Source: a virus
Virus record (IMG/VR): IMGVR_UViG_3300025322_000969
Coordinates: 1 to 39,400 of that record
Length of the DNA: 39,400 nucleotides
Strand: one strand, 5' to 3'
In this document: positions 1 to 39,394 of the stretch, one piece after another
Layout of the letters: every line of letters begins with the position of its first letter
Position numbering within the stretch: the first letter of the stretch is position 1
Program-made: the position numbers and the translations under genes
The notes under the pieces: model-generated
What the model saw: only the letters and a program-made list of their open reading frames with translations
The model's database searches: none
What the model was told of the DNA's origin: nothing

Positions 1-2
1 TG

Positions 3-146: not shown

Positions 147-148
147 CT

Positions 149-196
149 ATGATTAAACCTACTACTGATAAGGGGCAGGGGAAGGGGGTTAATTAG
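149..196 (+). CDS. possible 15-residue leader peptide
   Basis: An ATG at 149 opens a 15-codon frame ending at TAG 194-196. It has no clear Shine-Dalgarno site and a biased composition (Lys, Gly, Thr). It is listed only because its stop abuts the first GCTAGCG box of the structured element at 196, just as the stop of the 17408-18166 gene abuts the second copy at 18167. If translated, a terminating ribosome would disturb that structure. It could equally be chance. The stretch 147-195 also holds the G-run segment 172-188 (runs of 4, 4 and 5 G), which is striking in an AT-rich genome. Confidence 0.2.
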   Translation: MIKPTTDKGQGKGVN

Positions 197-243
197 CTAG
201 CGGTTATTAAGCTGGGAAGTTCGCTAGCGCCCGGCTTAATGAC
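196..243 (+). promoter_or_regulatory. interleaved stem element, copy 1, covering a start codon
   Basis: GCTAGCG at 196-202 is followed at once by a 14-base arm (203-216), a 5-base gap, CGCTAGC (222-228), one G, and the complementary 14-base arm (230-243). The 14-bp stem has two G-U wobbles (205-241 and 213-233), which suggests that pairing matters in RNA. The two GCTAGCG boxes are also mutually complementary, so the pairings are interleaved. The start codon of the 239 gene (239-241) lies inside the 3' arm, and no Shine-Dalgarno site is present. Copy 2 at 18167-18213 has the same architecture with compensating base changes. Confidence 0.75.
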
Positions 244-496
244 AAAAACTGTCTATTATAATTTAAGCGAGATTAATGGACTTCAAACAGACATAATGAG
301 GTTAATTGATGTTTGGGCGCACCACAATAAAACTCCTATACCACTAAAAATAATCAAAGATCAAATGAAAGCGGAGGGGGTAATAGAACCTACAACTATT
401 AAGGCTTTGGGTGTCCTCTTAAAGAAAGGATATATAAGGCGTGCTGTGACTATTTCCAACAAATCGTATTTTGTTATGTTGAGAAAAGTGGTTTGA
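239..496 (+). CDS. small winged-helix-like DNA-binding protein
   Basis: This 85-residue protein has a predicted helix-turn-helix with wing: helices around residues 12-28, 34-45 and 50-64, then a two-strand wing (residues 65-84). The pattern resembles MarR/LexA-like winged-helix domains, so a transcription-regulatory or terminase-accessory role is plausible; no exact family is recognised. Its start codon is buried in the structured element 196-243 and it has no Shine-Dalgarno site, so translation may be controlled by RNA folding. Its TGA stop (494-496) sits inside the TTGACT -35 hexamer of the promoter driving the terminase genes. Confidence 0.6.
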   Translation: MTKTVYYNLSEINGLQTDIMRLIDVWAHHNKTPIPLKIIKDQMKAEGVIEPTTIKALGVLLKKGYIRRAVTISNKSYFVMLRKVV

Positions 497-520
497 CTTA
501 AAATAAACCTACCCTCTACC
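493..520 (+). promoter_or_regulatory. promoter-like site upstream of terminase genes
   Basis: TTGACT (493-498), a 16-base spacer opening with the A-rich block seen at the other sites, then TCTACC (515-520) as a weak -10. It matches the promoter-like family found before other genes here, but this one leaves a leader of roughly 35-40 bases with an AAGGAAG Shine-Dalgarno site (545-551) before the ATG at 564. The -10 is the weakest part of the call. Confidence 0.5.
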
Positions 521-563
521 CTTAACTAAACCAAACTCTTAAAAAAGGAAGAACGGTAAAAAA

Positions 564-1022
564 ATGACCCTCAGACAAAAAGCAGCAATCAAGAAAGTGG
601 TGGAAAACGGTGGAATTGTTAGTAAAGCAATGAGAGATGCTAAATATTCTCCTAAAACCGCAAAAAACCCTAAAAAGCTAACTCAATCTAAAGCGTGGAT
701 GCAACTCATGGAGCAATATATCCCTGATGGTAGCTTACTTAAAAAACATAAGGAAGCCTTAAATGCTACTAAACCAATAGGAGCGCAAATACTTATTGAT
801 AAAGATGGGGAAACTATAAATAAAGAAAATGAAGGTATGATAGAAGTACCGGATCAGGTTGTTAGACTAAAAGCAGTTGAATTAGGATATAGAGTCAAAG
901 GCAAACTTCGACCAGAGGAAGGAGCGAGTATAGAGGCGAAGATACTGGTAATTCCAAGTGAATTGATAAAGAAATATGATACACCAATTACACCAGACAC
1001 AATCAATAGTAGCGCAAGATAA
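564..1022 (+). CDS. terminase small subunit-like protein
   Basis: This 152-residue protein is the likely DNA-recognition subunit of the packaging motor. The first 50 residues look like the N-terminal helix-turn-helix of phage small terminases (basic helices, with Tyr-Ser-Pro-Lys-Thr-Ala around residues 28-33), followed by a helical oligomerisation region. It starts at ATG 564 behind AAGGAAG (545-551). Its 3' end overlaps the large terminase gene by 47 bases. Assignment rests on the helix-turn-helix pattern, size and position directly before the ATPase gene; the sequence is otherwise divergent. Confidence 0.72.
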   Translation: MTLRQKAAIKKVVENGGIVSKAMRDAKYSPKTAKNPKKLTQSKAWMQLMEQYIPDGSLLKKHKEALNATKPIGAQILIDKDGETINKENEGMIEVPDQVVRLKAVELGYRVKGKLRPEEGASIEAKILVIPSELIKKYDTPITPDTINSSAR

Positions 1023-2328
1023 CCATGATTTTAGAATAGTTGATTGTGGTAGGCAGTGGGGCAAGACTACACTCGCAGTCGAAGAGATGAAGGCTTGTGG
1101 ATATTATAAAAAGGTTTATCCAAATGTTCCACACAATGAGATAGCGTATTTTGCAACAACATTCGATCAGGCTAGGAATATTGCATGGGCAATGCTTAAA
1201 GACTCAACCCGCTCCGCATGGGATAGACCTCCAAATGAATCAAGGTTGGAATTATGGTTAAGGACAAAGCATGGTGAATTATCAAGGATTACTTTAAGAG
1301 GGTTTGAGAATATTGAAACAGCAAGAGGTCAACAATTTGATCTATTAGTTATTGATGAAGTAGCTTTTATGAGGAATTGGAAATATGCTTGGCAGTCTAT
1401 TCTTGAACCAACACTAGCTTTTAGAAAAGGAAAAGCGTTATTCATTAGCACTCCACAAGGTTTTAATCACTTCTACGATTTATATAATTTAGGACAAAAA
1501 GAGGATAAATTCTACAAATCATGGAAGTTTACCAGTTACGAAAACCCTTTTCTTGATAAAGAAAGAATAGAGCAGGCTAAACTCACAAGTACACCTGATT
1601 ACTTTGCCCAGGAGTATCTTGCAGACTTCAGAAAATATGCTGGACTTGCTCTTACTCAATTTCAAAGAGAAATACATCTTATTGAAGCATTTGAAGTACC
1701 TAGCGAATGGCAAAGAGGTAGGGGGTTTGATTATGGTTCAAAAGATCCGACTGCCTCACTTAGAATTGCGATTGATAACGATGATAATTGGTTTATTGAA
1801 AGAGCATATAAACAAAAAGAGTCTACAATTCAAGAACACGCAACAACTATACTTGCCCAAGATTATGGATTAGGTTTTATGCCTATATTTGGTGATCCTT
1901 CAGGCGATCAATGGGAGAAGGAGTTTAAACAATATGGACTTAATATAACCCCGGCAAGTAAAGAAACAGGTCAAAACGCTCAAGGATATGTTGCATTTAC
2001 CATTGAAACAATCAACGAAAGGCTTAAACCAATTCCCGGACATACGGTTAATTTACCAAATGGAAAAGTTATAGAAAATGCTCCTAGATTATTTTTCTTA
2101 AATACTCCTGAGGTTATGATGGCAGTCAAAGAAGCGGAGTTATTAAAGTGGAAAGAAACAGCACAAGGACAAACTCTACCAATTTTAGATGAATATGTAG
2201 ATCCTGACGGACATTGTGATTTAATGGCTTGTTTAAGATACTTTGCAGTTAGTTATATAAAACCTAAGCCCATTAACTATAATGATGATCCAGGTGGGGT
2301 CCAGCCATATATTGAAGGCATTGGTTGA
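976..2328 (+). CDS. terL: terminase large subunit (packaging ATPase/nuclease)
   Basis: This 450-residue protein pumps DNA into the prohead and cuts the concatemer. Visible motifs: Walker A GRQWGKT (residues 25-31), Walker B LLVIDE (123-128), coupling motif ISTP (157-160), then an RNase H-like nuclease domain with acidic residues at D252, D307 and the C-terminal His413/Asp415 region. All are in family order at near-standard length. The start at 976 is preferred although it overlaps the small terminase gene by 47 bases, because residues 1-24 match the conserved segment before Walker A in this family. Its TGA stop lies within the -35 hexamer of the portal promoter. Confidence 0.95.
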   Translation: MIHQLHQTQSIVAQDNHDFRIVDCGRQWGKTTLAVEEMKACGYYKKVYPNVPHNEIAYFATTFDQARNIAWAMLKDSTRSAWDRPPNESRLELWLRTKHGELSRITLRGFENIETARGQQFDLLVIDEVAFMRNWKYAWQSILEPTLAFRKGKALFISTPQGFNHFYDLYNLGQKEDKFYKSWKFTSYENPFLDKERIEQAKLTSTPDYFAQEYLADFRKYAGLALTQFQREIHLIEAFEVPSEWQRGRGFDYGSKDPTASLRIAIDNDDNWFIERAYKQKESTIQEHATTILAQDYGLGFMPIFGDPSGDQWEKEFKQYGLNITPASKETGQNAQGYVAFTIETINERLKPIPGHTVNLPNGKVIENAPRLFFLNTPEVMMAVKEAELLKWKETAQGQTLPILDEYVDPDGHCDLMACLRYFAVSYIKPKPINYNDDPGGVQPYIEGIG

Positions 2329-2361
2329 CTATAGATAAAGTATTCCTTTAATCTCTAAATT
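2325..2361 (+). promoter_or_regulatory. leaderless-type promoter for portal gene
   Basis: TTGACT (2325-2330), a 16-base spacer, TTTAAT (2347-2352), C, then 8 bases to the ATG at 2362. Transcription starting about 7 bases after the -10 would begin at or next to the A of the start codon. There is no Shine-Dalgarno site. The upstream terminase stop is embedded in the -35. Confidence 0.65.
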
Positions 2362-4146
2362 ATGGCTGATAATCCAATTGTTGAAGACAATCTTGAGTTG
2401 CAGATGCTCCTAAACATAAAAGAAGAAGGGTATAACTACCGCGAGAGGCGTGAAGAGGATTGGCGGGAGAACTACGAACTCTATAGAGATAAAGTTACAA
2501 TAAATCGCTTAACCCAGCGTCAATCCGTAAACCTCCCCCTAATGAAAACTACTCTAAGGACTTTACTTAAAGATATTGATGATATGCCTATTATTCAATT
2601 TGAGAATTTGGACAACGACAAGCAAGCCGAGTTGTTTCAGAATGAGTTTTGGAAAGTAACACTTGAGCAAAACAACGCTGAGATACAAGATATTGTAGAT
2701 AAAAAGCAGGATTTCTTCTTTGGTAGGACTTTTGACTCATGGCAGATAGAGGATGGTAGGATAATCTTTGATGTTGAAGACCCGGAAGACGTTTTAATTC
2801 CCCGTTTTATGAACCCATATGATATTGATTCTGCTAGATCACTTACCCATATCAATATTTTTAAACCACTTAGCAGCCTTAAGAAAGATCCCGATTATAA
2901 TCAGGATGAGGTTAGAAAGCTGGAGGAGTTCTTTAGGTCACAAATGGGAATAGTTAAGGCTAAAGATAATGAAAATGCCTTGCAACAAAAGAATAAAAAG
3001 ATGGCTGATATGGGGGTTACTGACATAGATGATCCAGTGCTTGGTGAAACCTATGTACAATTAACCATGACTTATGTTTATAGGGATAAAGGAGAGAAAT
3101 GGACTGATAATATAGATGGCAAGAAATATACAACCGAAGATGAGCAAATCTTTCTTTATGTAGAGGCTGAAGAGCAAACTATCTTAATGAAAAAGCCTCA
3201 AGAGAAGATAATCGGAGTAACAAAAGACCACTATTGGAGAAACCACTATAGATACAACACATGGGGTGATGATATAGACAAGCAGGACTTCTGGACTGAT
3301 GGGATAGCGGATATTGTTAGAGTACCTAATAAAGTGCTTAATTCCTGGTTTTCACAGTTAGTTGAAAATAGAACGCTTAGAAACTTTGGTATGCACTACT
3401 ATGATTCATCACTCAAAGCGGAAGGTTTTATACCTAGTACATTTAATCCTGTCCCTTGGGGCTGGTATCCAGTCCCTGGTAAACCTTCAGATGTGCTGCA
3501 AAAGGTAGATATTCCTGATTTATCAGAATCCTTAGATGAGATGGCATATGTAACAACTATGATTGAAAAGGCCACAGGGGCTACAGCCACACAACAGGGA
3601 GTAGAAACTAAAGCTCAAACTACTTTAGGGGAGGTACAACTTGCCCAAGGAGAAGCAAAGGCTAGGACTCAGGGTATGTCTAAGTTCTATACCGATGCTT
3701 GGAAACAAAGGGCTACTAAGTTTCTAAAGCTTATAGAAGCCGCTTCTGACCGCTTGGATGCTGTCAAAATCTACCACCAAGGTAAAAACACTGATAATGT
3801 CTTTGAACGGGAGATAAGCCCTAAAGATTGGATGACAAAGGCAGGATATAGAGTAAAAGTATGGAGCCAGGATGAGAAGAAAGCCAATGATACTGACTCG
3901 CTTACTAAGTTAAACGCTGTTATGATGAATATGGCTGATAATCCTAAACTTAGGGAAGTTTATCAAAGGAAATTGCTTGAGTTTGCAGACTTAAAGCCTG
4001 AAGAAATAACTGAGATCATGCAGTTTGAAGAGCAAAAGCTGATGATGTTAGGTAATGGACAGATGGGACTACCACCTCAAATACCAGGGCCAGGACAACC
4101 ACAGCCTCAAGCTCAGCCTATGATAGGAGGATTCCAAAGTGCTTGA
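2362..4146 (+). CDS. portal protein
   Basis: This 594-residue protein forms the dodecameric ring at the DNA-entry vertex. The N-terminal part is charged and helical with Trp/Tyr-rich segments, the central part matches the P22-type portal wing/stem layout, and the C-terminus ends in a Pro/Gln-rich tail (residues about 570-590). Its place directly after the large terminase, and its size, agree. It starts at ATG 2362, 9 bases after a -10-like TTTAAT with no Shine-Dalgarno site, so the mRNA may be leaderless. An AGGAGG at 4125-4130 inside its 3' end serves the next gene. Confidence 0.88.
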   Translation: MADNPIVEDNLELQMLLNIKEEGYNYRERREEDWRENYELYRDKVTINRLTQRQSVNLPLMKTTLRTLLKDIDDMPIIQFENLDNDKQAELFQNEFWKVTLEQNNAEIQDIVDKKQDFFFGRTFDSWQIEDGRIIFDVEDPEDVLIPRFMNPYDIDSARSLTHINIFKPLSSLKKDPDYNQDEVRKLEEFFRSQMGIVKAKDNENALQQKNKKMADMGVTDIDDPVLGETYVQLTMTYVYRDKGEKWTDNIDGKKYTTEDEQIFLYVEAEEQTILMKKPQEKIIGVTKDHYWRNHYRYNTWGDDIDKQDFWTDGIADIVRVPNKVLNSWFSQLVENRTLRNFGMHYYDSSLKAEGFIPSTFNPVPWGWYPVPGKPSDVLQKVDIPDLSESLDEMAYVTTMIEKATGATATQQGVETKAQTTLGEVQLAQGEAKARTQGMSKFYTDAWKQRATKFLKLIEAASDRLDAVKIYHQGKNTDNVFEREISPKDWMTKAGYRVKVWSQDEKKANDTDSLTKLNAVMMNMADNPKLREVYQRKLLEFADLKPEEITEIMQFEEQKLMMLGNGQMGLPPQIPGPGQPQPQAQPMIGGFQSA

Positions 4147-4450
4147 CGAAATTTTAGAGAAATCAGGGCTTAAATACGAACAATTAACTGCCCTGGAGAA
4201 AGAAACGCTTAATACCTGGATGGATGCCCTCCAAAAAGGCCAGGTAAGTATAGAAAAGGTTAGAGAGTATATTGGTTCAATGAAAGAGGCGGTTGAGCAA
4301 GAACTTACAAAGTTTGACTTAGATCCGAACCAAGACCTATTCTTAAAAGCAAGATTGCGCAATTATATGTTATTGGATGCTTATTTAAGTACACCTGAAA
4401 GAGCTAAGGAGCAGATAGAGAACGCAATTTCCCAAATGGTAAGGAAGTGA
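4139..4450 (+). CDS. hypothetical helical protein after portal
   Basis: This 103-residue protein is predicted almost wholly alpha-helical, with charged amphipathic repeats. It has a GTG start at 4139 set by AGGAGG at 4125-4130 (8-base spacing) and overlaps the portal stop. No family is recognised; its position between portal and scaffold suggests a virion or assembly accessory role, which is inference. The same AGGAGG-plus-8 geometry is used by the apparent AUA starts later in the window, so it is a useful internal standard for this genome's Shine-Dalgarno spacing. Confidence 0.7.
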   Translation: MLDEILEKSGLKYEQLTALEKETLNTWMDALQKGQVSIEKVREYIGSMKEAVEQELTKFDLDPNQDLFLKARLRNYMLLDAYLSTPERAKEQIENAISQMVRK

Positions 4451-4455
4451 TAGAC

Positions 4456-4614
4456 ATGAAACACGGAAAACATAAATTGACATCATCTAAAGCTAAAGAA
4501 ATTCTTAGACATGGATCAGTTAAAGGACATAAATTAACTGCAAAACAAAAGAGATTTATGGGAGCAAGAGCAGGTGTAAGCCTAGTTCGTAGAAGGAAAA
4601 AGAGGAAGGCTTGA
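4456..4614 (+). CDS. 52-residue basic virion-associated protein
   Basis: This short gene (ATG 4456, TGA 4612-4614) encodes 52 residues, about one third Lys/Arg. The middle resembles a motif recurring in small phage head-region proteins: His-Gly-x-Val-(Lys/Arg)-Gly-His-x-Leu-Thr followed by Lys-Gln-(Lys/Arg)-Arg-Phe-x-Gly (residues about 19-36), then a strongly basic tail. That resemblance is from memory of the family and was not searched. It lies 5 bases after the previous stop, and its TGA lies in the -35 hexamer of the next promoter. It may bind DNA or capsid; the function is not known. Confidence 0.65.
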   Translation: MKHGKHKLTSSKAKEILRHGSVKGHKLTAKQKRFMGARAGVSLVRRRKKRKA

Positions 4615-4647
4615 CAGTAGATAAAAAACTTATCTAATCTATAAATA
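4611..4647 (+). promoter_or_regulatory. leaderless-type promoter for 4648 gene
   Basis: TTGACA (4611-4616), a 16-base spacer beginning GTAGATAAAA, TCTAAT (4633-4638), C, TATAAATA (4640-4647), ATG at 4648. It is the best match to the shared pattern in the window. The -35 contains the TGA stop of the preceding gene. A second reading uses TATAAA (4640-4645) as the -10 with a 23-base spacer. Confidence 0.7.
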
Positions 4648-4881
4648 ATGAATCCAGATTTCCAAGAAGTCCTAAATAAAATTCTCGCTAAAACTCCCGA
4701 AGAGCTTAATGAACAGGAAAAAGCCTTCCTAAGAGCCAGAAGTTCATATCTTAAGAAAGCTCAATTAGAAGAATATGATAGTATATTAAATCCTAAACCA
4801 GAAATATATGTTGCTAAAAAGGATAGAGAAACCAAACCTGCTAAAGAGCAGACGGTAAAAGAAAATGTTAACACCAAATAA
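4648..4881 (+). CDS. hypothetical small protein before scaffold
   Basis: This 77-residue, charged, helical protein of unknown function has an N-terminal half that could form two helices and a Lys/Glu-rich, probably disordered C-terminal third. It starts directly after the promoter-like site 4611-4647, so it would be read from a leaderless mRNA. It overlaps the scaffold gene by 17 bases in another frame, which suggests translational coupling. Position suggests head assembly; nothing in the sequence proves it. Confidence 0.6.
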   Translation: MNPDFQEVLNKILAKTPEELNEQEKAFLRARSSYLKKAQLEEYDSILNPKPEIYVAKKDRETKPAKEQTVKENVNTK

Positions 4882-5701
4882 ACCCACACCTGAAGAGTTA
4901 AAAGCCAAAGAAGAGGAAGCAATCAAAGCTGCTGAAGAGTTAGAGGGCAGACAACAGATCCCACCAGACGAGGAAGAGGAAAAAAAAGAAGAACCAACTG
5001 AAGATGCAGGTAATGAACTGGAAGAAGAAGCAGGAGAGGTTGAGGAAGAGGCAGAAGCAGAAGAAGTATCCGAAGAGGTAGAAGAGAAAGAAGCCATCCC
5101 CTCTAAAGAACTCTACAAAAAGAAGTTCTCCGAATCATCAAAGGAAAACCAAAAGATATATGCCAAGAATAGGGTTATCAATAAAGCACTAGCTGATGCC
5201 GAAGATGTTCCTGAACCAACCGAGGAAGAATTGCAGGTAGAGTTTGCTGATTGGGATGTGATGAGTGATACCGAGAGGGTATTTGCCAAAGAGACGGTTA
5301 TATCACGCAATTGGAGAAAGACAATAGCACAAGCCAAGGAACAAGCTACCAGGATTGAGAAATGGAATGAATCAGTAGAAGACTTTGTAAGTGATCCGGT
5401 AACTTTAACTGATAATCCGGAGTTGGAAGGCAAGACCGAAGAGTTTAAAGCTTTTGCCACAGAAGAAGCCAATAACAGTGTGCCATTTAAGCTACTTGTC
5501 TCCGCTTTTTTACATGACCATACTACTAACAAACCAAATAATAAAGGCAGGATGTTTGAAAGAGGCAGTGGTGGTCCCAATGATAAACCACAACCAAAAG
5601 ACGGGTCTATAACTTTGGAAGAAGGCAGAAAATTAAGAGAGACGGATTATAACCGCTGGAAGGAATTACTTGCTGCCGGAAAGATTAAGTCAGATCTTTG
5701 A
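4865..5701 (+). CDS. scaffolding protein
   Basis: This 278-residue protein has a very acidic, Glu-rich N-terminal stretch (residues about 8-75), coiled-coil-like helices (about 80-190) and a basic, Gly/Pro-containing C-terminal region ending in a short helix. Highly charged, helical proteins placed directly before the major capsid gene are typically scaffolds that shape the prohead and then leave or are cleaved. There is no enzymatic motif and no protease domain. It starts at ATG 4865, overlapping the previous gene. Assignment is by composition and order. Confidence 0.72.
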   Translation: MLTPNKPTPEELKAKEEEAIKAAEELEGRQQIPPDEEEEKKEEPTEDAGNELEEEAGEVEEEAEAEEVSEEVEEKEAIPSKELYKKKFSESSKENQKIYAKNRVINKALADAEDVPEPTEEELQVEFADWDVMSDTERVFAKETVISRNWRKTIAQAKEQATRIEKWNESVEDFVSDPVTLTDNPELEGKTEEFKAFATEEANNSVPFKLLVSAFLHDHTTNKPNNKGRMFERGSGGPNDKPQPKDGSITLEEGRKLRETDYNRWKELLAAGKIKSDL

Positions 5702-8826: not shown

Positions 8827-9707
8827 TGATTGACCTATCAGTAGTTATACCTAATTTTAATTCCCCTTTTACAGTACAAACTATAGATGATGTCTTAAAA
8901 AACGCCAGTTGTAGCGTAGAAGTAATTGTAAATGTAGAACAATTATGGCCTGAGCCACTTTCTACAGACGAGAGAGTCCATTATATCCACCCACCTGCCC
9001 CTATTGGTCTTAGAGCTGGTGTAAATGCTTGTGTAGCTATGGCTAAGGGTAAGTACATAATGAAGACTGACGATCATTGTATGTTCGGTGAGAACTTTGG
9101 CAAGATCTTAATAGAATCCCATCAACCTGATTGGGTACAAGTACCTCAACGATATGCCCTAGACGCTGAAAACTGGAAAATTGAGGAGAGAACTGATGAT
9201 AAGTACCCGATTGTCCAGATGTATCAAGATTTTCCCCGTAAAGGTAAAGCTAATGATGATGGAACGCATGGAGTTGAGTGGAGGGAACGAAGAAATCAAA
9301 CCAAAGATCAGGATTTAGTAGAAAGTCCATCAATGCAAGGGAGTTGTTGGTTTATGACTAGAGAATACTTTGATAAGTTAAAACTCATGGATGCTACAGG
9401 ATATGGTCAATTTGCCCAAGAAGCACAGGAAATTGGCTTTAAGACGTGGTTAAGTGGGGGAAAGTTAATGATAAACAAGAAAACCTATTATGCGCATTTG
9501 CATAAAGGAAATCATTATGGAAGATTCTACAAAATGCCCAGTGGTAATGTAGAGGCGGATTCATGGAGTGCGTCTCATTGGTTAAATAATGAAGAACCCG
9601 GAATGATACATGATTTCGCATGGTTCATTAACGAGAAATTCCCTAATATGCCAGGATGGGAATCAAATTGGCAGGAACAAATAAAGGAGATGGGCTGGGT
9701 AAAATGA
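8826..9707 (+). CDS. GT-A glycosyltransferase with DDH motif (1)
   Basis: This 293-residue family 2-type (GT-A fold) glycosyltransferase has the nucleotide-sugar binding N-terminal strand-turn (VVIPNFN, residues 6-12), a metal-binding Asp-Asp-His (82-84) in TDDHC, and an acceptor-side segment with Gln-Gly-Ser-x-Trp and Trp-Leu-Ser-Gly-Gly. The DxH form of the metal motif and the downstream Glu/Trp-Leu-x-Gly-Gly pattern recall polypeptide GalNAc transferases (GT27), but most bacterial relatives are filed under GT2. There is no membrane segment, so it is probably cytosolic. It opens the glycan operon and overlaps the next gene by ATGA. Confidence 0.82.
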   Translation: MIDLSVVIPNFNSPFTVQTIDDVLKNASCSVEVIVNVEQLWPEPLSTDERVHYIHPPAPIGLRAGVNACVAMAKGKYIMKTDDHCMFGENFGKILIESHQPDWVQVPQRYALDAENWKIEERTDDKYPIVQMYQDFPRKGKANDDGTHGVEWRERRNQTKDQDLVESPSMQGSCWFMTREYFDKLKLMDATGYGQFAQEAQEIGFKTWLSGGKLMINKKTYYAHLHKGNHYGRFYKMPSGNVEADSWSASHWLNNEEPGMIHDFAWFINEKFPNMPGWESNWQEQIKEMGWVK

Positions 9708-10450
9708 AAATATCAATTGTAGGTACAGAACATATGGCTCAATCTTTTTCCTATTGTATGGAAAGAATGGGTCATGAAATAGTTTCTTTGGAAGAGTGTG
9801 ACATTTGTTGGATAGCTATTGATACTCCTATTAAAGATGGGCGTGGAGATATTGAAGATGTCTTTATTGCAGCTAAAAGAGTAAGAGATAAACTTAGACA
9901 AGGTGTATTGGTAATCTGCTCAAGCCAAATACCTGTTGGAACTTCAAGAGAACTAATGAATATATTAGGAAACAATTATGCCTATATTCCTGAACATATG
10001 AGGATGGGAAGAGGTATTTTTGATTTTATGAACCTTAAAGAAATCACAATTGGAGTGGATGATGATAAATGTAAACCTATTCTATTAAACTTATTTTACG
10101 ATAAGTCAGTCTTCTTCACCAGCATAGAAACTGCTGAAATGATTAAACATGCCACTAATGCTTACTTAGCCACTACCGTCTCTTTAATCAATGATATTGC
10201 TGATATTTGTGAGCAGGTTGGGGCTGATGTGGCTGATGTCACTAAAGCACTAAGGTCTGATTGGAGAATAGGCAAAGAAGCGTATTTAGACGTATCAGTG
10301 GGCTTTAGAGGCGGTCATTTTGATAGAGATATAAATTACTTACAAGGTGTGGCAAGAGAAAAGAAGATTGAGATTCCAATACTGGATGCTGTTATGGAGA
10401 AAAACCATAAACGCAGGGATAAAATTGTTAGCAAGCTAATTGATATATGA
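9704..10450 (+). CDS. UDP-glucose/GDP-mannose dehydrogenase-like, catalytic Cys missing
   Basis: This 248-residue protein has the NAD-binding and central helical domains of nucleotide-sugar dehydrogenases. The central signature is intact (Ala-Glu-Met-Ile-Lys-His-Ala-Thr-Asn, with Lys148 and Asn152). The usual GG-x-C-x-P-K-D catalytic loop reads GGHFDRD (203-209): both the Cys and the Lys are gone, and the C-terminal UDP-binding domain is absent. Oxidation to a uronic acid is therefore unlikely; a different redox step or a structural role is possible. The start at 9704 (ATGA overlap) is chosen over an upstream in-frame ATG at 9656. Confidence 0.75.
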   Translation: MKISIVGTEHMAQSFSYCMERMGHEIVSLEECDICWIAIDTPIKDGRGDIEDVFIAAKRVRDKLRQGVLVICSSQIPVGTSRELMNILGNNYAYIPEHMRMGRGIFDFMNLKEITIGVDDDKCKPILLNLFYDKSVFFTSIETAEMIKHATNAYLATTVSLINDIADICEQVGADVADVTKALRSDWRIGKEAYLDVSVGFRGGHFDRDINYLQGVAREKKIEIPILDAVMEKNHKRRDKIVSKLIDI

Positions 10451-16384: not shown

Positions 16385-16604
16385 TCCTGCAACAGCAATT
16401 AAAGTTAGAAGATCTAAACAGTTTAAGTTAAAAGCTAGAACAAATAAAAACTTGCAGGTTATTCATATAAAAGACTTTGGTTTTATTCCTGAAACTCTTA
16501 TCTTTGAAAGAATAAATCAAAATTGGTTTGCTATAAGCGCTATTTTAACTCCTGAAGAGATTAAGAAAGAAGAGGAATTAGTTAAGGAGGAGAAAAAGAA
16601 ATAA
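16368..16604 (+). CDS. small basic hypothetical protein in glycan operon
   Basis: This 78-residue protein is rich in Lys, with a possible small beta region (residues about 15-60) and a charged helical tail. It starts at ATG 16368 behind an AGGGGAAGG purine tract; an in-frame earlier start at 16293 would lie inside the cytidylyltransferase gene and is less likely. Its last codons contain the AGGAGG that serves the next gene, and its TAA overlaps that gene's apparent AUA start. No family is recognised. Confidence 0.55.
   Translation: MTTQNDPATAIKVRRSKQFKLKARTNKNLQVIHIKDFGFIPETLIFERINQNWFAISAILTPEEIKKEEELVKEEKKK
16585..16603 (+). promoter_or_regulatory. strong SD placed on an AUA codon (site 1)
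   Basis: AGGAGGAG (16585-16592) lies 8 bases before ATA at 16601-16603, which overlaps the previous TAA stop as ATAA. The frame from this ATA encodes the missing Rossmann glycine motif of the epimerase-like protein, so it is the apparent start. ATT at 16604 is a less likely alternative. Confidence 0.6.
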
Positions 16605-17098
16605 TTATCGGAAACGGAGACATCGGCACTATATTAAAAGAAGCTATGCGTCCGGCAGACGAGGGCTATATTTTCTTTGCCTCAGGAGTTTCAAATAGCC
16701 AGGAAACAAGGGAAGATGAATATAATAGGGAGTATTTACTGCTTATGGAGCAGGATAGGTCAAAGCATCTAGTTTATTTTAGCTCTTTGGCGGTTTTCTA
16801 TTCGGATACACGCTATACTAAGCATAAAAGACTAATGGAGGCTTGGATTAAAAAAGAGTTTCCCAAATATACTATAGTCAGGTTGGGGAATATTACATGG
16901 GGAACTAACCCTCATACACTTATCAATTACTTAAAAGCCCATCCAGAAGCGGAAATACAAGACGTTTACCGCTATATTATTGATAAAGATGATTTTTTGC
17001 ATGTTATCGAGCTTATTCCTGACTGGTCATGTGAACTATCTATCTTTGGTCGTAGAATGAAAGTTAAAGAAGTGGTAAAGGAGTATTGTAATGGATAA
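16601..17098 (+). CDS. NAD-dependent epimerase-like protein with apparent AUA start
   Basis: This is a 165-residue short extended-SDR relative. From the ATA at 16601 the N-terminus reads Ile-Ile-Gly-Asn-Gly-Asp-Ile-Gly, the expected NAD-binding glycine motif, which is lost if the first ATG (16646) is used. Ser-Ser (residues about 63-64) and Tyr-x3-Lys (about 74-78) form the catalytic core. It is half the usual length, so substrate-binding parts are reduced. It could be a sugar-nucleotide reductase or epimerase. It overlaps the phosphatase-like gene by 8 bases. Confidence 0.68.
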   Translation: MIIGNGDIGTILKEAMRPADEGYIFFASGVSNSQETREDEYNREYLLLMEQDRSKHLVYFSSLAVFYSDTRYTKHKRLMEAWIKKEFPKYTIVRLGNITWGTNPHTLINYLKAHPEAEIQDVYRYIIDKDDFLHVIELIPDWSCELSIFGRRMKVKEVVKEYCNG

Positions 17099-17411
17099 AT
17101 CAATAAAAATACTTTGTGTCTGCCAGCATGGTTACTGTAGGAGTGTAGGGACAAGATATTGCCTTAATAAACGTGGCTATAATAATGTGATTGCTATTGG
17201 ATGGCGCAATACTTCTCTTGAAACTTTAAAGATGCTTTCCGATTGGGCAGATATAATCTTAGTAGCTAAACCCTATCATGCTGATTATCTTCCAAGTGGA
17301 AAAGAGAAAGTAAATAACAAATTTACCATAGGAGAAGATAATTGGCTTAATCCTATGAATAAAGAGTTACACGAAATCGTAGATAAACAATTGGAGTTAA
17401 TAAAATTATGA
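17091..17411 (+). CDS. low-molecular-weight protein tyrosine phosphatase-like protein
   Basis: This 106-residue protein has an N-terminal P-loop Cys11-x5-Arg17-Ser18 (CQHGYCRS), the LMW-PTP/arsenate reductase signature, directly after a beta strand. The usual Asp-Pro general-acid loop near the C-terminus is not obvious (an Asn-Pro occurs instead), and the protein is shorter than the usual 140-150 residues. In capsule operons such enzymes dephosphorylate tyrosine kinases that control chain synthesis; here it may have a different phosphate substrate. It overlaps the next gene by ATGA. Confidence 0.65.
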   Translation: MDKSIKILCVCQHGYCRSVGTRYCLNKRGYNNVIAIGWRNTSLETLKMLSDWADIILVAKPYHADYLPSGKEKVNNKFTIGEDNWLNPMNKELHEIVDKQLELIKL

Positions 17412-18166
17412 AAACTGGCTGCGTGGGTTTTGGCTGGGTTGGTAAAAGTATGAAACAACTATTTCCAGAAGCTGTAGTATACGACCCTGCTTTAAATATG
17501 GGAACTAAAGAAGAAATTAATAAAGTAGATATTTGTTTTATTGCAGTGCCAACTCCTAATATTGGTGAGAGTAAACTTGATACTTCAATAGTCGAAGAAG
17601 TGATTAAATGGTGTGAATGTCCACTTCTTGTTATTAGGTCAACAGTAAATCCTGGGGATTGTGATAGATGGATAAAAGAAACAAAAAAAAACATTTTAAT
17701 GCAACCGGAATATTTGGGCGAGTCTCCTGCTCATCCAATGCTTGACCCTAAAATTAGACCCTTTTTGATAATTGGCGGATTACCTTTTGCAAGGTACAAA
17801 CTTATTCAACTTTATCAAACAGTTTATAACGCCAATATTACAATTCGGGAAGTGACTAATTTAGAGGCAGAAGTTATTAAACTTTCGGAAAATAGGGCAA
17901 TTGCTTTTAAAGTAGCCCAATGTCAGGAACTTTATGATATATGTGAAAAAGCAGGAGTTAATTACAATACTATTCGAGAAGCGGTTTATGGTGATGATCC
18001 TCGATTTAATCTTTGGTGGACTTTTGTCTATCCAGATAAAAGAGGATTTAATTCAAAGTGTATTCCCAAAGATGTGTATGCTTGGTGTGCTTGGGCTGAA
18101 AGTCTAGGTTATGAACCGAAAATTACCAGAGCCATACTTGAGAAGAATAAGGATTGGATAAAGTAA
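17408..18166 (+). CDS. UDP-glucose/GDP-mannose dehydrogenase family, catalytic residues intact
   Basis: This 252-residue protein has an NAD motif Gly-Phe-Gly-Trp-Val-Gly (7-12), a central helix with Glu-Ala-Glu-Val-Ile-Lys158-Leu-Ser-Glu-Asn162, and a catalytic loop Ser-Lys-Cys218-Ile-Pro-Lys221-Asp222. These residues are those used to oxidise a nucleotide sugar C6 to a uronic acid. The C-terminal nucleotide-binding domain is missing, so it is shorter than the usual 390-450. It contrasts with the paralogue at 9704, which has lost the Cys. Its TAA abuts the structured element at 18167. Confidence 0.82.
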   Translation: MKTGCVGFGWVGKSMKQLFPEAVVYDPALNMGTKEEINKVDICFIAVPTPNIGESKLDTSIVEEVIKWCECPLLVIRSTVNPGDCDRWIKETKKNILMQPEYLGESPAHPMLDPKIRPFLIIGGLPFARYKLIQLYQTVYNANITIREVTNLEAEVIKLSENRAIAFKVAQCQELYDICEKAGVNYNTIREAVYGDDPRFNLWWTFVYPDKRGFNSKCIPKDVYAWCAWAESLGYEPKITRAILEKNKDWIK

Positions 18167-31972: not shown

Positions 31973-32698
31973 ATGGATGATTTAGCAGATATACGAGCTG
32001 CCGTGCAAGACGATCTCACTGTTGGTGAGGAAAGTACACTTTTTTCTCCCAGTCTTATTGATCGGGCAATTAATAGAGCTTACAGGAAAGTTGCGGCATT
32101 ATTCCCCTGGCCTGAACTTCAAGACGCTAAAAAGACTTCAACTCAGATAGATCAGGAATATTATGACTATCCTACAAACTGGCGGTCTAACTCTATCTGG
32201 AAGCTAACAATATTAGATTCTGATAGCAATGATGATAGATATGGGGAAGATCCTGACGGAAGCCCTCTTTCTTTTGATGATTACTTAGTTTGGAAAGAAG
32301 ATAATCCGGATAGTACAGAAAAAAAATGGTCTAATCAGTGGAGAAGGTTCTTTATCTGGCCTATTCCTACTACTGCCGGAACTAATAATATTCATGTTTG
32401 GGGAATAAAAGTTGTAACAACTTTGAGTGACGATGCTGATACTACAATCTTTTCTCTTTCAACACCAGAGGCGAATGAGGCAATAGCGCTTGAAGCAGTT
32501 GCGATTTTGAAATCCAAAGAAGACAAAGAAGATTCCAGTAAGTTTAGAAGCATGGAAGCAAAACAAATATTAATAGTTGCTTGGGGAAAAATTACAAAGG
32601 AAATGGCTAAATATGAAAAGAATCAACCATTTTTTGAAGTAGAAGATATGTTCGGGCCAGGAAGAAGTAAAGATCTTAGGGGGAGATTTGATATATGA
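31973..32698 (+). CDS. head-tail adaptor-like (connector) protein
   Basis: This 241-residue protein has an N-terminal helical bundle (Ile-Asp-Arg-Ala-Ile-Asn-Arg-Ala-Tyr-Arg-Lys-Val, about 29-40) followed by Trp-Pro and Tyr-Tyr-Asp-Tyr-Pro segments. This arrangement is seen in P22 gp4-type and other neck proteins that sit under the portal. A C-terminal helix pair (about 165-215) follows. Its place before the internal virion proteins fits. The family assignment is by pattern only. Its stop overlaps a tiny ATG-ATG frame that ends before the next gene. Confidence 0.62.
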   Translation: MDDLADIRAAVQDDLTVGEESTLFSPSLIDRAINRAYRKVAALFPWPELQDAKKTSTQIDQEYYDYPTNWRSNSIWKLTILDSDSNDDRYGEDPDGSPLSFDDYLVWKEDNPDSTEKKWSNQWRRFFIWPIPTTAGTNNIHVWGIKVVTTLSDDADTTIFSLSTPEANEAIALEAVAILKSKEDKEDSSKFRSMEAKQILIVAWGKITKEMAKYEKNQPFFEVEDMFGPGRSKDLRGRFDI

Positions 32699-32705
32699 TG
32701 AAATT

Positions 32706-32722
32706 AGGAGGATATTAAAATA
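32706..32722 (+). promoter_or_regulatory. strong SD placed on an AUA codon (site 2)
   Basis: AGGAGG (32706-32711), 8 bases, ATA (32720-32722). The sequence GGAGGATATYAAAATAG is shared with site 3 at 36545. No ATG, GTG or TTG lies in frame within a plausible distance of this site; TTG and ATG codons further in would remove a conserved-looking N-terminal domain. Confidence 0.68.
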
Positions 32723-33986: not shown

Positions 33987-36101
33987 ATGAATATGTTTAT
34001 TAACCAAGCTAGTCCACAGCCTGGTAAATCGACTTCTACTTCTCCAGCATTTCAGAGAGCTACAGATATAAAAAATGCACAAAAGACTAACGTGTTTATT
34101 AATAGTAAAACTTCTACCAATATTGAAGTTCCTATATTTACCCCAAGCGCACCTAGTACACCTAGACAATTTCCTAAAGAATCTATAGTTAGTTCTCAAC
34201 CACAACAGAATTTTCTACAAACTGTACAAACTAAAGCAGCTCCTATTATTGGACAAGCGCTACAGCTTGCCAAAGAAACAGTGAAACAAGTAGTAGATTT
34301 TATTCCTCAAGTACCATCTTATGCCAAAGCAGCTAAAGAAAAACCACTAGAGACAGTTGCAGGAGCAGGAGAAGCTAGTTTAACCTTTTTTGGTTCTTTG
34401 GCGGGGATAGTCCAGCGTGGTATAGCTTCGGTTGCCAAGGTAAATATTCCCGAAAGATGGGATATTACCAAACAAACAAGGGCTTTGAGAGAATTAGATG
34501 AACAATTAATACGAAAAGATACAAAAACCGCTGGGGAATTAATAGATAAAAGAAAAGCGTTTGAAACAGGAAGATTTGTAGGATCTTTTTTGCCTTATGC
34601 CTTAGGATCAGAAGTGGCAGCGGCATCAATAGGCTCTAAGATCCTACTTCCAACAGCAGAAAAGTTTTTACCAGGGGCAGTTAAATTTATTTCTACTATT
34701 AATAACGCTATTGGTTTTATGGGGGTAGGACAAATAGAACATGATCCAGAACACGGATCAAGAGTAGATAGGTTTAAAAATGACTTAATTATGTTAGGAC
34801 TTTTTGAAGTAGGTGGAGTGGTATTAAAAGGGCTAACTAAAGGAACTAAAAACTTAATTTCCAAAACAACTAATGAAGTAAAGGGTAAAAAGACAGTTGT
34901 TATGGAAGAAGTTGAACCCCAAATTCAGGAAATTAAAGTTGCAATTAAAAAGGATACAGGGCAGAGTATGGAGGTTGTAGTTGCCAAACAAATAGCTGAA
35001 GGAAAACCAAAACCTATAGTTTCTAAACCCCTCCAACCATTAGCAGAAGAAGCAAGGAAGTATAAGAGTGCGAAGGAGTTTGTGGAGGATTATGGAAAAA
35101 TTTCAAGAGAAATATCACGGGGGAAACCATCAGCTGGAGCATTAGGAGAATACACTTCAGAGGGGAAAATAAGAATAAAAACAAAAGGATTATCTAAGGA
35201 AGAAATAAAAGAAGTTATTGGACATGAACAAAAACATCAGATTTCAGAGAAAATAATGGGCTATTTTATAAAAAAAGGCCCAAATGGTTTTGATAAAGAG
35301 TTTAGTAGAGTGGAAAAAATAATTAAAAAAATGGGAAAAGTTGTAGCGGTTGAAACCAAAGGAGAAATTGATATACAAATATTTGAACAATTCACATATA
35401 ACAATAAAGAATTTGCAAAAAGGTTGCCTGAATTACATAAATACTTAATCGATTATGTTAATCTTAGGAAACAGGCTCAATCAATTCCCGATCTTACCGA
35501 TTTCTACATCCAAGCTACAGGAGGAATTAAACCTAAAGGGATTAAGATTGAAACTAAGCCTAAAGAGGTTAAGCCCATTGGTGAAGGTGAAACAAAAGTA
35601 TCTACACTTGGTCTTCGTGTAGAACAAACAGCTATTGAAAAGAAGTTAGTTAAAGAGTTAGGTGATTTACCAGAATATAAACAGCTTAATATGAAAGACC
35701 AGGCTACAAAAGCTGGAAACTTAATTAATTCTGATCCTGATAAAGCAATGAGGATAGCTTTGGGTCAAGAATTACCACCAGAAGGATTACTTAAAGAAAG
35801 CATATTTAAAGCCGTAGAAGAAAGCATCACAACTCCAGAGATGGCTAGAAGATTAGCAAGCTCTCCCTTGGTTTCAGAGAGTACAGCTTTAGGTCAAAGA
35901 ATTAAGGCTTTAGATGTACAGATTGCAGATTCACCAGTAGGAGCTATGAAACAAGTAATTGATGCAAGAAAAAAAGTTATTGAGGGAAGATATGGTAATG
36001 TCGATAAGGCTACCGAGAGGGTTACTAAAGATATACAATCTAAAGTGAAGATCCCTTCAAAATGGGATTGGAATAAATTTATAGAAGGGATTCAGTGCTA
36101 A
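33987..36101 (+). CDS. internal virion protein with HEXXH metalloprotease-like motif
   Basis: This 704-residue protein has an N-terminal low-complexity segment (1-75), two hydrophobic stretches that could cross or enter a membrane (about 122-150 and 196-290), and then a domain containing His413-Glu-Gln-Lys-His417. This HEXXH pattern lies in a helix after Ile-Lys-Glu-Val-Ile-Gly, with Glu-rich sequence downstream for a third ligand. The motif is typical of zinc metalloproteases, which could open the cell envelope or process virion proteins; activity is inferred. It starts 1 base after the previous stop. Its TAA precedes the HNH gene's ATG. Confidence 0.68.
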   Translation: MNMFINQASPQPGKSTSTSPAFQRATDIKNAQKTNVFINSKTSTNIEVPIFTPSAPSTPRQFPKESIVSSQPQQNFLQTVQTKAAPIIGQALQLAKETVKQVVDFIPQVPSYAKAAKEKPLETVAGAGEASLTFFGSLAGIVQRGIASVAKVNIPERWDITKQTRALRELDEQLIRKDTKTAGELIDKRKAFETGRFVGSFLPYALGSEVAAASIGSKILLPTAEKFLPGAVKFISTINNAIGFMGVGQIEHDPEHGSRVDRFKNDLIMLGLFEVGGVVLKGLTKGTKNLISKTTNEVKGKKTVVMEEVEPQIQEIKVAIKKDTGQSMEVVVAKQIAEGKPKPIVSKPLQPLAEEARKYKSAKEFVEDYGKISREISRGKPSAGALGEYTSEGKIRIKTKGLSKEEIKEVIGHEQKHQISEKIMGYFIKKGPNGFDKEFSRVEKIIKKMGKVVAVETKGEIDIQIFEQFTYNNKEFAKRLPELHKYLIDYVNLRKQAQSIPDLTDFYIQATGGIKPKGIKIETKPKEVKPIGEGETKVSTLGLRVEQTAIEKKLVKELGDLPEYKQLNMKDQATKAGNLINSDPDKAMRIALGQELPPEGLLKESIFKAVEESITTPEMARRLASSPLVSESTALGQRIKALDVQIADSPVGAMKQVIDARKKVIEGRYGNVDKATERVTKDIQSKVKIPSKWDWNKFIEGIQC

Positions 36102-36560
36102 ATGAATCGTAAAGAATATTATAAGTTTTTGAAATTTAACCCACCGTTTTTAGGTAGGAAACATTCTGAAGAGACTAAAAAGAAAATTGGACTAAAATCT
36201 AAAGGTAGATGTGCTGGTAAAAAAAGCAATTTTTATGGAATTCATAAATTAGGAAAAAATAGTCCGAATTGGAGAGGTGGTTTAAGAGGTGATAGTTATC
36301 TGGAAAGACGAAGATTTAGAGCAGCTATGCAAAAACTTATTTTTGAACGAGATGGATACAAATGCCAAATGTGTGATTCTGGAGGAGATTTACAGGTAGA
36401 TCATATAGCCTCATGGGCTGAATTTAAAGAACTTAGATTTGATCCAGATAATTGCAGGACTTTATGTGCTAAATGTCATTATGAAATCACATTTAAAAAA
36501 CCTATGCCCGAAAATATAAAAACATGGGGACATAATTTAGAACGGAGGATATCAAAATAG
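36102..36560 (+). CDS. HNH homing endonuclease with NUMOD3-like motif
   Basis: This 152-residue protein has an N-terminal Leu-Gly-Arg-Lys-His-Ser-Glu-Glu-Thr-Lys-Lys-Lys-Ile-Gly (17-30), the NUMOD3-type DNA-binding motif of homing endonucleases. The HNH nuclease follows: Cys88-x2-Cys91, Asp100-His101, Asn117, Cys122-x2-Cys125-His126. It is a free-standing selfish nuclease placed exactly between two virion genes (stop-to-start without a gap). Its last codons contain the AGGAGG of the next gene and its TAG overlaps that gene's ATA start. No flanking intron was identified by eye. Confidence 0.9.
   Translation: MNRKEYYKFLKFNPPFLGRKHSEETKKKIGLKSKGRCAGKKSNFYGIHKLGKNSPNWRGGLRGDSYLERRRFRAAMQKLIFERDGYKCQMCDSGGDLQVDHIASWAEFKELRFDPDNCRTLCAKCHYEITFKKPMPENIKTWGHNLERRISK
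36545..36559 (+). promoter_or_regulatory. strong SD placed on an AUA codon (site 3)
   Basis: GGAGG (36545-36549) lies 7-8 bases before ATA (36557-36559), overlapping the TAG stop of the HNH gene as ATAG. It is nearly identical to site 2. The first in-frame ATG (36638) would remove 27 codons. Confidence 0.65.
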
Positions 36561-36949
36561 CTAAATGGTGTCTTATACCTGAACAGGTACAGAAATTTAA
36601 AGAAGCATTAAGAAACAGGACTATTGACCCTGAAAAGTTGGGCAAGATGTCCAGTGAGGAAAGAAATGCCTTTTTAAGCAAGATAGTAGGGAGAGATAAT
36701 GCTTTACAAGTTAATTCCTTATTTGAAAGTAAGTTACTTTTAAAGAACCAAAAAGCAGGGTACATTTCTTGGGCTAAGAAGGTAGCTGGTTTAACCCCAG
36801 AGGTAAGACGCGATTTAATCGCTAAAATTGAAAGATTAGATAGAGTATTAAGTCCAAAAGAAGGTGAACAATTCTTAAAAGATTTAGCTGAAACAAGATT
36901 AGGAGCTAGTGTTAGTGAAACTGAAGCTAAGAATATATTTAATTTATGA
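36557..36949 (+). CDS. N-terminal part of lysozyme-bearing virion protein, apparent AUA start
   Basis: This covers 130 codons from ATA 36557 to an in-frame TGA (36947-36949). The protein is helical and charged, opening Ala-Lys-Trp-Cys-Leu-Ile-Pro, with later Lys-Leu-Gly-Lys-Met and Trp-Ala-Lys-Lys-Val-Ala-Gly. The reading frame continues past the TGA into the large downstream frame with no shift, and the sequence on both sides reads as one domain, so this is probably the front of a single protein of about 945 residues. Whether the TGA is a true stop, a mutation or is read through cannot be told here. Confidence 0.65.
   Translation: MAKWCLIPEQVQKFKEALRNRTIDPEKLGKMSSEERNAFLSKIVGRDNALQVNSLFESKLLLKNQKAGYISWAKKVAGLTPEVRRDLIAKIERLDRVLSPKEGEQFLKDLAETRLGASVSETEAKNIFNL
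36947..36949 (+). other. in-frame TGA inside lysozyme-bearing gene
   Basis: TGA separates two parts of one continuous frame (36557-39394). The next 31 codons contain no ATG, GTG or TTG, and no Shine-Dalgarno site is near. One base change from TCA, TTA, GGA or CGA would explain it, as would readthrough or a sequence error. Confidence 0.7.
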
Positions 36950-39394
36950 GAGAGAGTTAAAAAAACAAAATCATTACAACAAGAAAATTTAACTTTTAAA
37001 ACAGAAGAACAAAGATTAGCTTATGGTAGATCAAAAGTAGCTTTGATTAATTATGTTAATGATTTAAAAGGTAGAACTAATCAGAGAATTACTTTAAATC
37101 CAGTAAAAGCATTATCTACTATTGCAGGTAATGCTAAATCTATAAAGGCTTCTATGGATAATTCAGCAATATTTAGACAAGGTTGGAAAACTTTATGGAC
37201 AAATCCCGTAATTTGGTCTAAAAATGCTGTTAAATCCTTCTCTACTATTTTTAAAACCTTTGGAGGCAAGAAAGTCATGGACGAACTAAATGCTGATATT
37301 ATCTCTCGTCCTAATTATGATTTAATGGTTAAGGCTAAACTAGCTATAGGAACTATAGAAGAGGCCTTCCCTGGAACTGTTGCTGAAAAATTACCTATTC
37401 TGGGGAGGGTCTACAAAGCTTCAGAGAATGCTTTTACTGGCTTTGTTCATAAAACAAGAGCTGATGTATTTGATAAATATATCCAAATTGCTCAAAAATC
37501 AGGAATTGAACTAACAGAAAAAGAATTACAAAGTATTGGATCTATGGTTAATTCTCTAACTGGAAGAGGTAATCTTGGTAGGTATGAAGGTTCAGCAGCT
37601 AATTTAATTAATAATGTTTTCTTTTCCCCGAGATTTGTTAAAAGTCAGTTTGACACCTTAGGTCATGTTATTAGCGGAGCAGGAGGAAGTAATTTTGTTA
37701 GAAAACAAGCAGCCTTTAATTTATTAAAAGTAGTTTCAGGTACAGCAACTGTTCTTGCAATTGCTGATACTATAAAACCAGGTAGTGTTGAGTGGGATTC
37801 AAGAAGTTCAGATTTTGGAAAAGTAAAGATAGGTAATAGTAGCTTTGATGTTACAGGAGGAGCAAGTAGCCTTGTAGTACTAGCTAGTAGAATATTACCT
37901 TTATTAATAGGACAAGCAGCATCTACAAAATCAAGTATAACTGGTGCAATTATTCCTATAAATGAAGGTAAGTATGATCCTAAAACAGGAGAATTCGTTT
38001 TAAAGTATGGTGCTTCAACTGGAAAAGACGTATTATTTAATTTTTTCTCAAACAAAGCTGCTCCAGTAGCAGGATTTTTCTTGAATCTTCTTGAAGGTAG
38101 AAACTTTAATGGTGAAAAACCTACTCTTAAAGGTGAAGTAGTTAATTTATTTCAACCAATTCTTTTTTCTACATATGAAGATCTACAAAAAGATCCAAAC
38201 TCCCCTAATAAAGTAATTACTATGATTTTAGATGGATTGGGTATAGGTGTTAATACATATTTGCCTAAGCCTTCTAAGGAGAATAACTGGATTGATAAAC
38301 CAACTATATCTCAAAATGCTTTCTTAAAGAAAGTTGGAGAAGAAAAGTTTAAAGAAGCTAACCAGGTATTTAATACTAGATTTGAAACTTGGAAGAAAGA
38401 AATTGAGTCTAACGAAATATATAACAAGTTATCTGACGATAAAAAAGATGGAGTAAGACAGAGTGCTAGACAAAGAATTCAAGATGCAATTTTCAAAGAA
38501 TACCAATTTATCTATAAAGAACCTAAAAAGACCAAAGAAGAATTAAGACAGGAAAAGGAGTTAGAGAAAGCTAAACCTAAGAAAGTTACTCAATCTTTAC
38601 TAGATAAATTAATTCCTACAGCTTATGCAGCTGAGGATAATAGTTTATTTGGTAGTGCTACATACAAGTCAGATTTTAAAACAGGGAAAACAATTGTAAC
38701 AATTAATGAAGGTATTATAAATAAAATTATTAAAGCAGTAACTGGATTATTTTCAAATAAGTCAGAAGAAGTAAAAACTGAATCTAACAAAGATTATGAT
38801 AAAATAAAAATAACTTATGGTAAGGTTACTTCTAATACAGCAACAGAAGAAAAAAGCGGAGAAACTATATCTATTCCTAAAATTCCAGTAAGTAAAGAGG
38901 GTGAAATAGATTTTAAATTATTTCCTAATGACCAAAAATCTGCTACAAGACCCAACTTTACACCGCCTCAACCACCCCAAGATATTGCAGATATTATTAA
39001 AAAACATTTTGGTGAGGATTATGCAACAGCAGTTTTAGTGGCAGTTACTGAAAATGCTAGATATCTTTCCACCAAAGAGGCAGATAATATTTGGAATAAA
39101 GATGGAAGTATTGATAGGGGTATTTTTGCTATAAATTCAAATAGTTTTAAGGGATTAATGGAAAGACAAGGAAATAAATTAAAAGCTTATGATATCAATT
39201 CATTTGAAGATATGCTTGACCCTGATAAAAATGCTTACGTAGCTAAACTTATGCGAACTGAAAGTAAACAAGCTAATCCACAAACTAATGGTTGGGGTCG
39301 TTGGTTTGGTTGGCAAGATACGGGATATAACATAAATAATGGATGGTATTCAAAAGCAGAAAGAATTGAATATGAAGTTAATAAAAAGAAATAA
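36950..39394 (+). CDS. internal virion protein with C-terminal lysozyme-like domain
   Basis: This covers about 814 codons downstream of the in-frame TGA. The first possible start is TTG 37043, which has no Shine-Dalgarno site. A long helical and amphipathic region with hydrophobic stretches is followed by a charged linker. A C-terminal lysozyme/transglycosylase-like domain (about 39000-39310) has Val-Thr-Glu-Asn-Ala (Glu as likely catalytic acid), Asp-Gly-Ser-Ile-Asp-Arg-Gly-Ile-Phe-Ala-Ile-Asn-Ser, and a Met-Leu-Asp-Pro helix start. Internal virion proteins with such a domain cut peptidoglycan during DNA injection, as in T7 gp16. Its TAA is 6 bases before the window end. Confidence 0.72.
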   Translation, partial: ERVKKTKSLQQENLTFKTEEQRLAYGRSKVALINYVNDLKGRTNQRITLNPVKALSTIAGNAKSIKASMDNSAIFRQGWKTLWTNPVIWSKNAVKSFSTIFKTFGGKKVMDELNADIISRPNYDLMVKAKLAIGTIEEAFPGTVAEKLPILGRVYKASENAFTGFVHKTRADVFDKYIQIAQKSGIELTEKELQSIGSMVNSLTGRGNLGRYEGSAANLINNVFFSPRFVKSQFDTLGHVISGAGGSNFVRKQAAFNLLKVVSGTATVLAIADTIKPGSVEWDSRSSDFGKVKIGNSSFDVTGGASSLVVLASRILPLLIGQAASTKSSITGAIIPINEGKYDPKTGEFVLKYGASTGKDVLFNFFSNKAAPVAGFFLNLLEGRNFNGEKPTLKGEVVNLFQPILFSTYEDLQKDPNSPNKVITMILDGLGIGVNTYLPKPSKENNWIDKPTISQNAFLKKVGEEKFKEANQVFNTRFETWKKEIESNEIYNKLSDDKKDGVRQSARQRIQDAIFKEYQFIYKEPKKTKEELRQEKELEKAKPKKVTQSLLDKLIPTAYAAEDNSLFGSATYKSDFKTGKTIVTINEGIINKIIKAVTGLFSNKSEEVKTESNKDYDKIKITYGKVTSNTATEEKSGETISIPKIPVSKEGEIDFKLFPNDQKSATRPNFTPPQPPQDIADIIKKHFGEDYATAVLVAVTENARYLSTKEADNIWNKDGSIDRGIFAINSNSFKGLMERQGNKLKAYDINSFEDMLDPDKNAYVAKLMRTESKQANPQTNGWGRWFGWQDTGYNINNGWYSKAERIEYEVNKKK

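Follow-up and report, generated by a model that had tools for sequence, protein, structure and literature searches.

Free-standing HNH endonuclease genes are known in phages, for example the mob genes of T4 (PMC2988022), and in ShiLan an HNH gene is hidden inside a phage gene (PMC11855218). Starting translation at AUA or AUU is also known, from S. aureus: infC, ccpN, citZ, and cvfC1 have AUA or AUU starts with extended Shine-Dalgarno sequences, and AUA/AUU reporters in poor medium gave about 10% of the AUG level, with ccpN reaching up to 30% in rich medium (PMC13009471). A search of a limited collection of literature gave no report of an HNH gene that supplies an AUN start to the gene that it displaces. 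Here we describe a gene whose start appears, judging from its sequence, to be of this kind: a ribosome site supplied by a mobile endonuclease gene, together with an unusual AUA start. The gene lies in a virus contig of 39,400 bases (the window), and a terminase and a major head protein are among the other genes. A first-pass annotation of this DNA overlooked two things, namely that this gene is without a usual start and that its start is overlain by an HNH gene. It is this start-replacing HNH gene, which looks like a variant of the free-standing HNH elements, that is the finding worth following.

All of the features at this locus are on the plus strand. The upstream gene (33987-36101) ends with a TAA, which is followed without a gap by the ATG of the HNH gene (36102-36560), and the HNH gene fills the interval from that stop to the GCT codon of the displaced gene. 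The final codons of the HNH gene are GAA CGG AGG ATA TCA AAA TAG. They include a GGAGG, or Shine-Dalgarno sequence (36544-36548), and 8 nt after it is an ATA (36557-36559), the candidate start codon, which overlaps the TAG (36558-36560). From this ATA to an in-frame TGA at 36947-36949 is the N-terminal part of the displaced gene (36557-36949), which is conserved from the second codon onward; the remainder of the same gene (36950-39394) is an open frame with a weakly lysozyme-like C-terminus. A stop-to-stop list of frames gives the gene as two entries, 36536-36949 and 36950-39394; it is one long phage gene (36557-39394), not two. An 8-base direct repeat, GCTAAATG, is found at the borders of the HNH gene (36097-36104, with the second copy at 36560-36567), possibly by chance.

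The product of the HNH gene has 152 residues. It matches the Pfam models for HNH (37.7 bits, cut-off 21.4) and NUMOD3 (22.9 bits, cut-off 20.4), and it also matches 22 PHROG families, which are mostly named HNH endonuclease. As expected of a free-standing HNH homing endonuclease, it has an HNH domain with an intact motif, it stands alone, and its site is empty in relatives; we infer that the gene is mobile. An Rfam scan of the window gave no match, and we rejected an intron around the HNH gene for this reason. As with the T4 mob genes, the HNH gene is alone between two conserved phage genes, and its start is coupled to the upstream stop as for mobE, but the excerpted account of those genes does not describe what we see in the window, where the 3' end of the HNH gene supplies a Shine-Dalgarno sequence and an AUA/AUU to the displaced gene (PMC2988022). 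The ShiLan case (PMC11855218) also involves the insertion of an HNH gene into a phage gene in a different frame, with a stop in the last bases of the insert and with no intron or intein. There, the insert is inside the host gene and is open in the host frame, whereas in the window the HNH gene lies at the first codon, and the displaced frame does not open until 36536. And what the S. aureus genes share with the window (PMC13009471) is an AUA or AUU after a strong Shine-Dalgarno sequence, but they are cellular genes whose weak starts are native and were not brought by a mobile gene.

With the N-terminal part as the query, we found homologs at 70 loci, of which 65 are viral (including 8 from the first scan) and 5 are in bacterial genome bins. 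The cysteine of MAKWC is kept in all 71 of 71 sequences, and the start codon nearest before this invariant cysteine is ATG in 66 of the 70 homologs and GTG in 4. Furthermore, the upstream frame stops between 15 nt before and 8 nt after the start in 57 of the 70, while GGAG or AGGA is found within 16 nt of the start in 21 of 70 and GGAGG in just 2. So in the usual layout the start and the upstream stop are coupled, and a clear Shine-Dalgarno sequence is mostly missing. Among the loci scanned, only the window, L028, and L063 have an HNH match directly before the gene. An empty junction is available from L078, which shares its contig with L112; the terminase of L112 is 88% identical to that of the window. 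L078 has no HNH gene at the junction, which reads TGCTAAATATATGGCTAAA. In the window, the homologous N-terminus begins at the ATA at 36557, which stands behind a strong Shine-Dalgarno sequence at a good spacing.

We propose that the HNH gene inserts at the start of the gene, with its ATG following the upstream stop, where relatives have the gene's own ATG. In this way it would take over the AUG that is coupled to the upstream stop. Near its end, the codons for Arg-Arg (CGG AGG) would double as a Shine-Dalgarno sequence and would place ribosomes on the AUA as a replacement start. Ribosomes that finish the HNH gene, or that bind its last codons via the Shine-Dalgarno sequence, would then begin translating the displaced gene from the AUA or AUU. 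The initiation at AUA/AUU itself is what we infer from these sequences. The junction (36510-36590) can also be folded into a hairpin that has the Shine-Dalgarno sequence and the AUA in its loop (z of -3.17 relative to shuffles, for one hand-picked stretch).

The same layout occurs in other phage contigs, where the best-matching relatives of the HNH gene stand ahead of other genes. Using five aligned HNH sequences as the query, we obtained at least 426 confirmed relatives (from 600 stretches). We took the best 80 of these and 9 further HNH ends, for a total of 89, and 86 of the 89 had 300 nt after the end. We determined where each HNH gene ends by following the frame in which its match starts, and we required the next frame to have at least 90 codons. 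Among these ends (the best 80 of at least 426, plus 9), 11 of 86 had a long next frame without ATG, GTG, or TTG within 30 nt of the HNH stop. In 7 of these 11 loci, the window included, [AG]GAGG is followed after exactly 8 nt by an in-frame ATA or ATT; because L119 and L154 are apparent copies of one another, these amount to 6 distinct loci among the matches listed. (The other apparent copies are L085/L142, L158/L159, and L170/L182.) The codon is ATA in the window and in L119/L154, and ATT in L120, L121, L122, and L123. We queried spacings of 7-9 nt in the same 11 loci, from the best 80 of at least 426 plus 9, and found only the 8-nt spacing and no other codons. Among the matches listed, the motif is absent from the other 4 of the 11 (L125, L134, L135, and L177). 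The window's two junctions, the second of which is described below, align with those of L119-L123 without an internal gap. The placement of the start is supported by L121, whose ATT aligns with the ATG of a paralog, and by L122 and L123, in each of which the ATT aligns with the TTG of L153. For L119 and L120, we found no homolog that fixes the N-terminus, and the genes after HNH in L120 and L122 had no match when searched in phages.

These comparisons also bear on another way to join the two frames. If ribosomes slipped by -1 while finishing the HNH frame, they would make a fusion of the HNH and virion proteins instead of starting at AUA. The sequence TC AAAA TAG does allow a slip into the ATA GCT frame, with a Shine-Dalgarno-like sequence upstream, and L119 is alike. 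But a slip cannot account for L122 and L123, where the A-run and the ATT come only after the HNH stop, and the feature that is common to the loci is the Shine-Dalgarno sequence, 8 nt, and ATA or ATT. We reject a frameshift fusion from the HNH frame, which is contradicted by L122 and L123 and which seems extremely unlikely.

Not every HNH insertion leaves a weak start. HNH genes also precede homologs of another gene of the window (gene 32720) in L025, L075, L085, and L105, with L025 placed by synteny and tblastn. The HNH match of L025 is weak (E = 8e-5). The 3' end of the HNH gene supplies an ATG in L025, L028, L063, and L085 and a TTG in L075, so HNH insertions do not in general bring a weak start. 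L105 has a TTG near the Shine-Dalgarno sequence and an ATT 10 nt after it, and can be read as using either one. In L063, the signal ahead of the HNH gene is AAGGAAGGATAAAATATG, which is also what precedes the virion gene in L058 and L059; a second Shine-Dalgarno sequence and an ATG are available where the HNH gene ends.

A scan with a fixed rule, which covered the 116 loci L003-L118 and not the HNH loci L119-L198, picked out the ATA at 36557 and a second one in the window, described below; in the 116 other loci, no ATA start came after GGAGG. An earlier scan, with other rules, had given two ATA hits in 70 loci, in L019 (on the minus strand) and in L067; both of these fail the fixed rule.

The window's other junction of this kind is ahead of gene 32720 (32696-32722, on the plus strand). 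It reads GGAGG ATATTAAA ATAG, with 8 nt before the ATA with which the gene begins, while homologs such as L004 begin with ATG. There is no HNH gene ahead of it. When read in the frame of the TAG, the junction encodes Glu-Ile-Arg-Arg-Ile-Leu-Lys-stop, as compared to Glu-Arg-Arg-Ile-Ser-Lys-stop at the end of the HNH gene. Perhaps this is a relic of an HNH 3' end, and the ATA of gene 32720 is the scar of an HNH gene that was lost, although the stretch is short and the resemblance could be due to chance. Overall, we lean slightly towards the view that a subfamily of HNH genes inserts at the start codons of structural genes, uses the AUG at the junction, and carries a Shine-Dalgarno sequence with AUA or AUU at 8 nt as a replacement, and that the AUA can remain as a scar. 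As a separate observation, the frame of gene 16601-17098 seems to begin at an ATA after AAGGAGG, with an A-TAA overlap with the previous stop, and encodes IIIGNGDIG. It has a weak NAD(P)-binding match, and a search of viral_contigs gave no homolog to fix its N-terminus; it fails the fixed rule for ATA starts and was not counted.

The gene's other oddity is the TGA, and here the observation in the first-pass annotation stands, and its interpretation stands in part. It described the frame from 36557 to 39394 as interrupted by a single TGA (36947-36949) with no frame shift, which is correct, but 36557 is no normal start: that position is the ATA that overlaps the TAG of the HNH gene. It stated that there is no usual start just after the TGA, and the first ATG, GTG, or TTG is indeed a TTG at 37043, 32 codons downstream. 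It also considered the codons just after the TGA to look coding, and both sides are indeed coding, as the alignments with homologs run uninterrupted across the junction. We agree that TGA is unlikely to be recoded in general: TGA terminates 15 of the 39 other listed frames, so we reject general recoding. (The gene at 31973-32698 also ends in TGA; six homologs of it end in TAA.) The annotation named homologs that are encoded as two separate genes divided at this place as the case that would speak against it, but 0 of 70 are, and we reject a split gene with a second start.

At the column of the TGA, the 70 homologous loci have Ser (34), Ala (34), or Tyr (2), and none of the 70 has a stop. Nine of the Ser codons are TCA, which is one base off TGA. 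In a structure model, which was built from 41 aligned sequences with the TGA read as Ser, this residue is inside a helix (residues 120-137, in a block with a confidence of 83-92), so a product that was truncated there would be predicted to stop mid-helix. The 100 nt from the TGA onward fold no better than shuffled sequences (z of -0.85). The first-pass annotation had offered local readthrough, a nonsense mutation, or a sequence error. Given the Ser/Ala column, the absence of a stop from the 70 homologs, the single base between TCA and TGA, the use of TGA as a normal stop, the position of the stop mid-helix, and the lack of a structured element after it, we favor a nonsense change or a consensus error, while local readthrough gained no positive support. 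Specifically, the TGA is most likely a one-base nonsense change in a TCA-type Ser codon, either a true mutant allele or a mistake in the metagenome consensus. The TGA is present in the sequence, but in all likelihood it is ordinary: not a designed stop, and presumably not decoded. Unless it is real in the reads, it is of little importance.

In virion genes such as A1 of Qbeta, an in-frame UGA is read through into a long open frame. The virion gene in the window likewise has an in-frame UGA with a long open frame behind it, but its stop is not conserved in the 70 homologs. If readthrough were programmed, most ribosomes would make a 130-residue N-terminal protein and a minority would make the full virion protein. 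In favor of this, the TGA is single, both sides are coding, and a further 814 codons are open, and in L056 the homolog is likewise interrupted by a premature stop, 52 codons on. However, besides being conserved in 0 of 70 homologs, the stop is inside a modeled helix instead of between domains, no notable structure follows it, and a tRNA search found none in the window nor in L107, L112, L114, and L078. We consider programmed readthrough to be very unlikely. Selenocysteine or a suppressor tRNA we reject, given the result of the tRNA search and the lack of a notable hairpin after the TGA. The premature stop in L056 is a TAA (L056:6538-6540) that comes after residue 181, and the frame past it stays open to the normal end.

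Another possibility is that the gene is decaying: the HNH insertion would have removed its start, and the TGA would be a later hit in a gene that is no longer made, so that the allele is real but defective. It is true that one gene has two oddities, an ATA for an ATG and a TGA. On the other hand, 814 codons past the TGA remain otherwise open and can be aligned, the 70 homologs keep a canonical start, and 69 of the 70 have no early stop in the stretch seen. Also, the ATA is behind a strong Shine-Dalgarno sequence, at a spacing that is common to other HNH loci. Decay seems unlikely to us. Instead, we think it likely that both parts of our reading hold, namely that the TGA is a nonsense change or an error and that the HNH gene invaded the gene's start and supplied the Shine-Dalgarno sequence and the AUA.

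If this is correct, then the insertion of a mobile gene at the start of a conserved gene need not silence the latter, since the mobile gene carries a spare start. Gene finders do not accept ATA or ATT, so genes of this kind would be annotated as too short or as broken. The layout of a Shine-Dalgarno sequence, 8 nt, and AUA or AUU would also be a natural test of the use of weak starts beyond the few host genes in which they are known, and of whether the invaded gene yields less when its start is weak.

As for the protein itself, the first-pass annotation called it lysozyme-bearing. This is plausible, but the last 144 residues match Pfam only below the curated cut-offs (SLT_3 with E = 0.0099, Lys with 0.083, and SLT with 0.091). 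Searches of the C-terminal part in viral_contigs, and of the N-terminal part and of the DNA of 33987-39394 in phages, gave no match; one distant phage relative, MW202497, matches the C-terminal part only. A fold search of PDB with the model found nothing at E of 0.001. A viral fold search gave 9 matches at this threshold, four of which are named large polyvalent protein associated domain proteins, but the model is middling (pTM of 0.55) and we did not file the protein in that family.

We made a few other observations about this virus and its relatives. The homologs in L068 and L069 are in bins named Shapirobacteria and Patescibacteria. This is no more than a hint as to the host group of the phage family. 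L107, a contig from another IMG/VR record, is 100% identical to positions 1-5035 of the window, an overlap that does not extend to the place of the TGA, and it continues for 836 bases further to the left; by eye, these extra 836 bases contain another lysozyme-like frame. Finally, the proteins encoded by 9656-10450 and 17408-18166 both match phrog_9148, which is labeled as UDP-glucose dehydrogenase, in a cluster of sugar-nucleotide genes.
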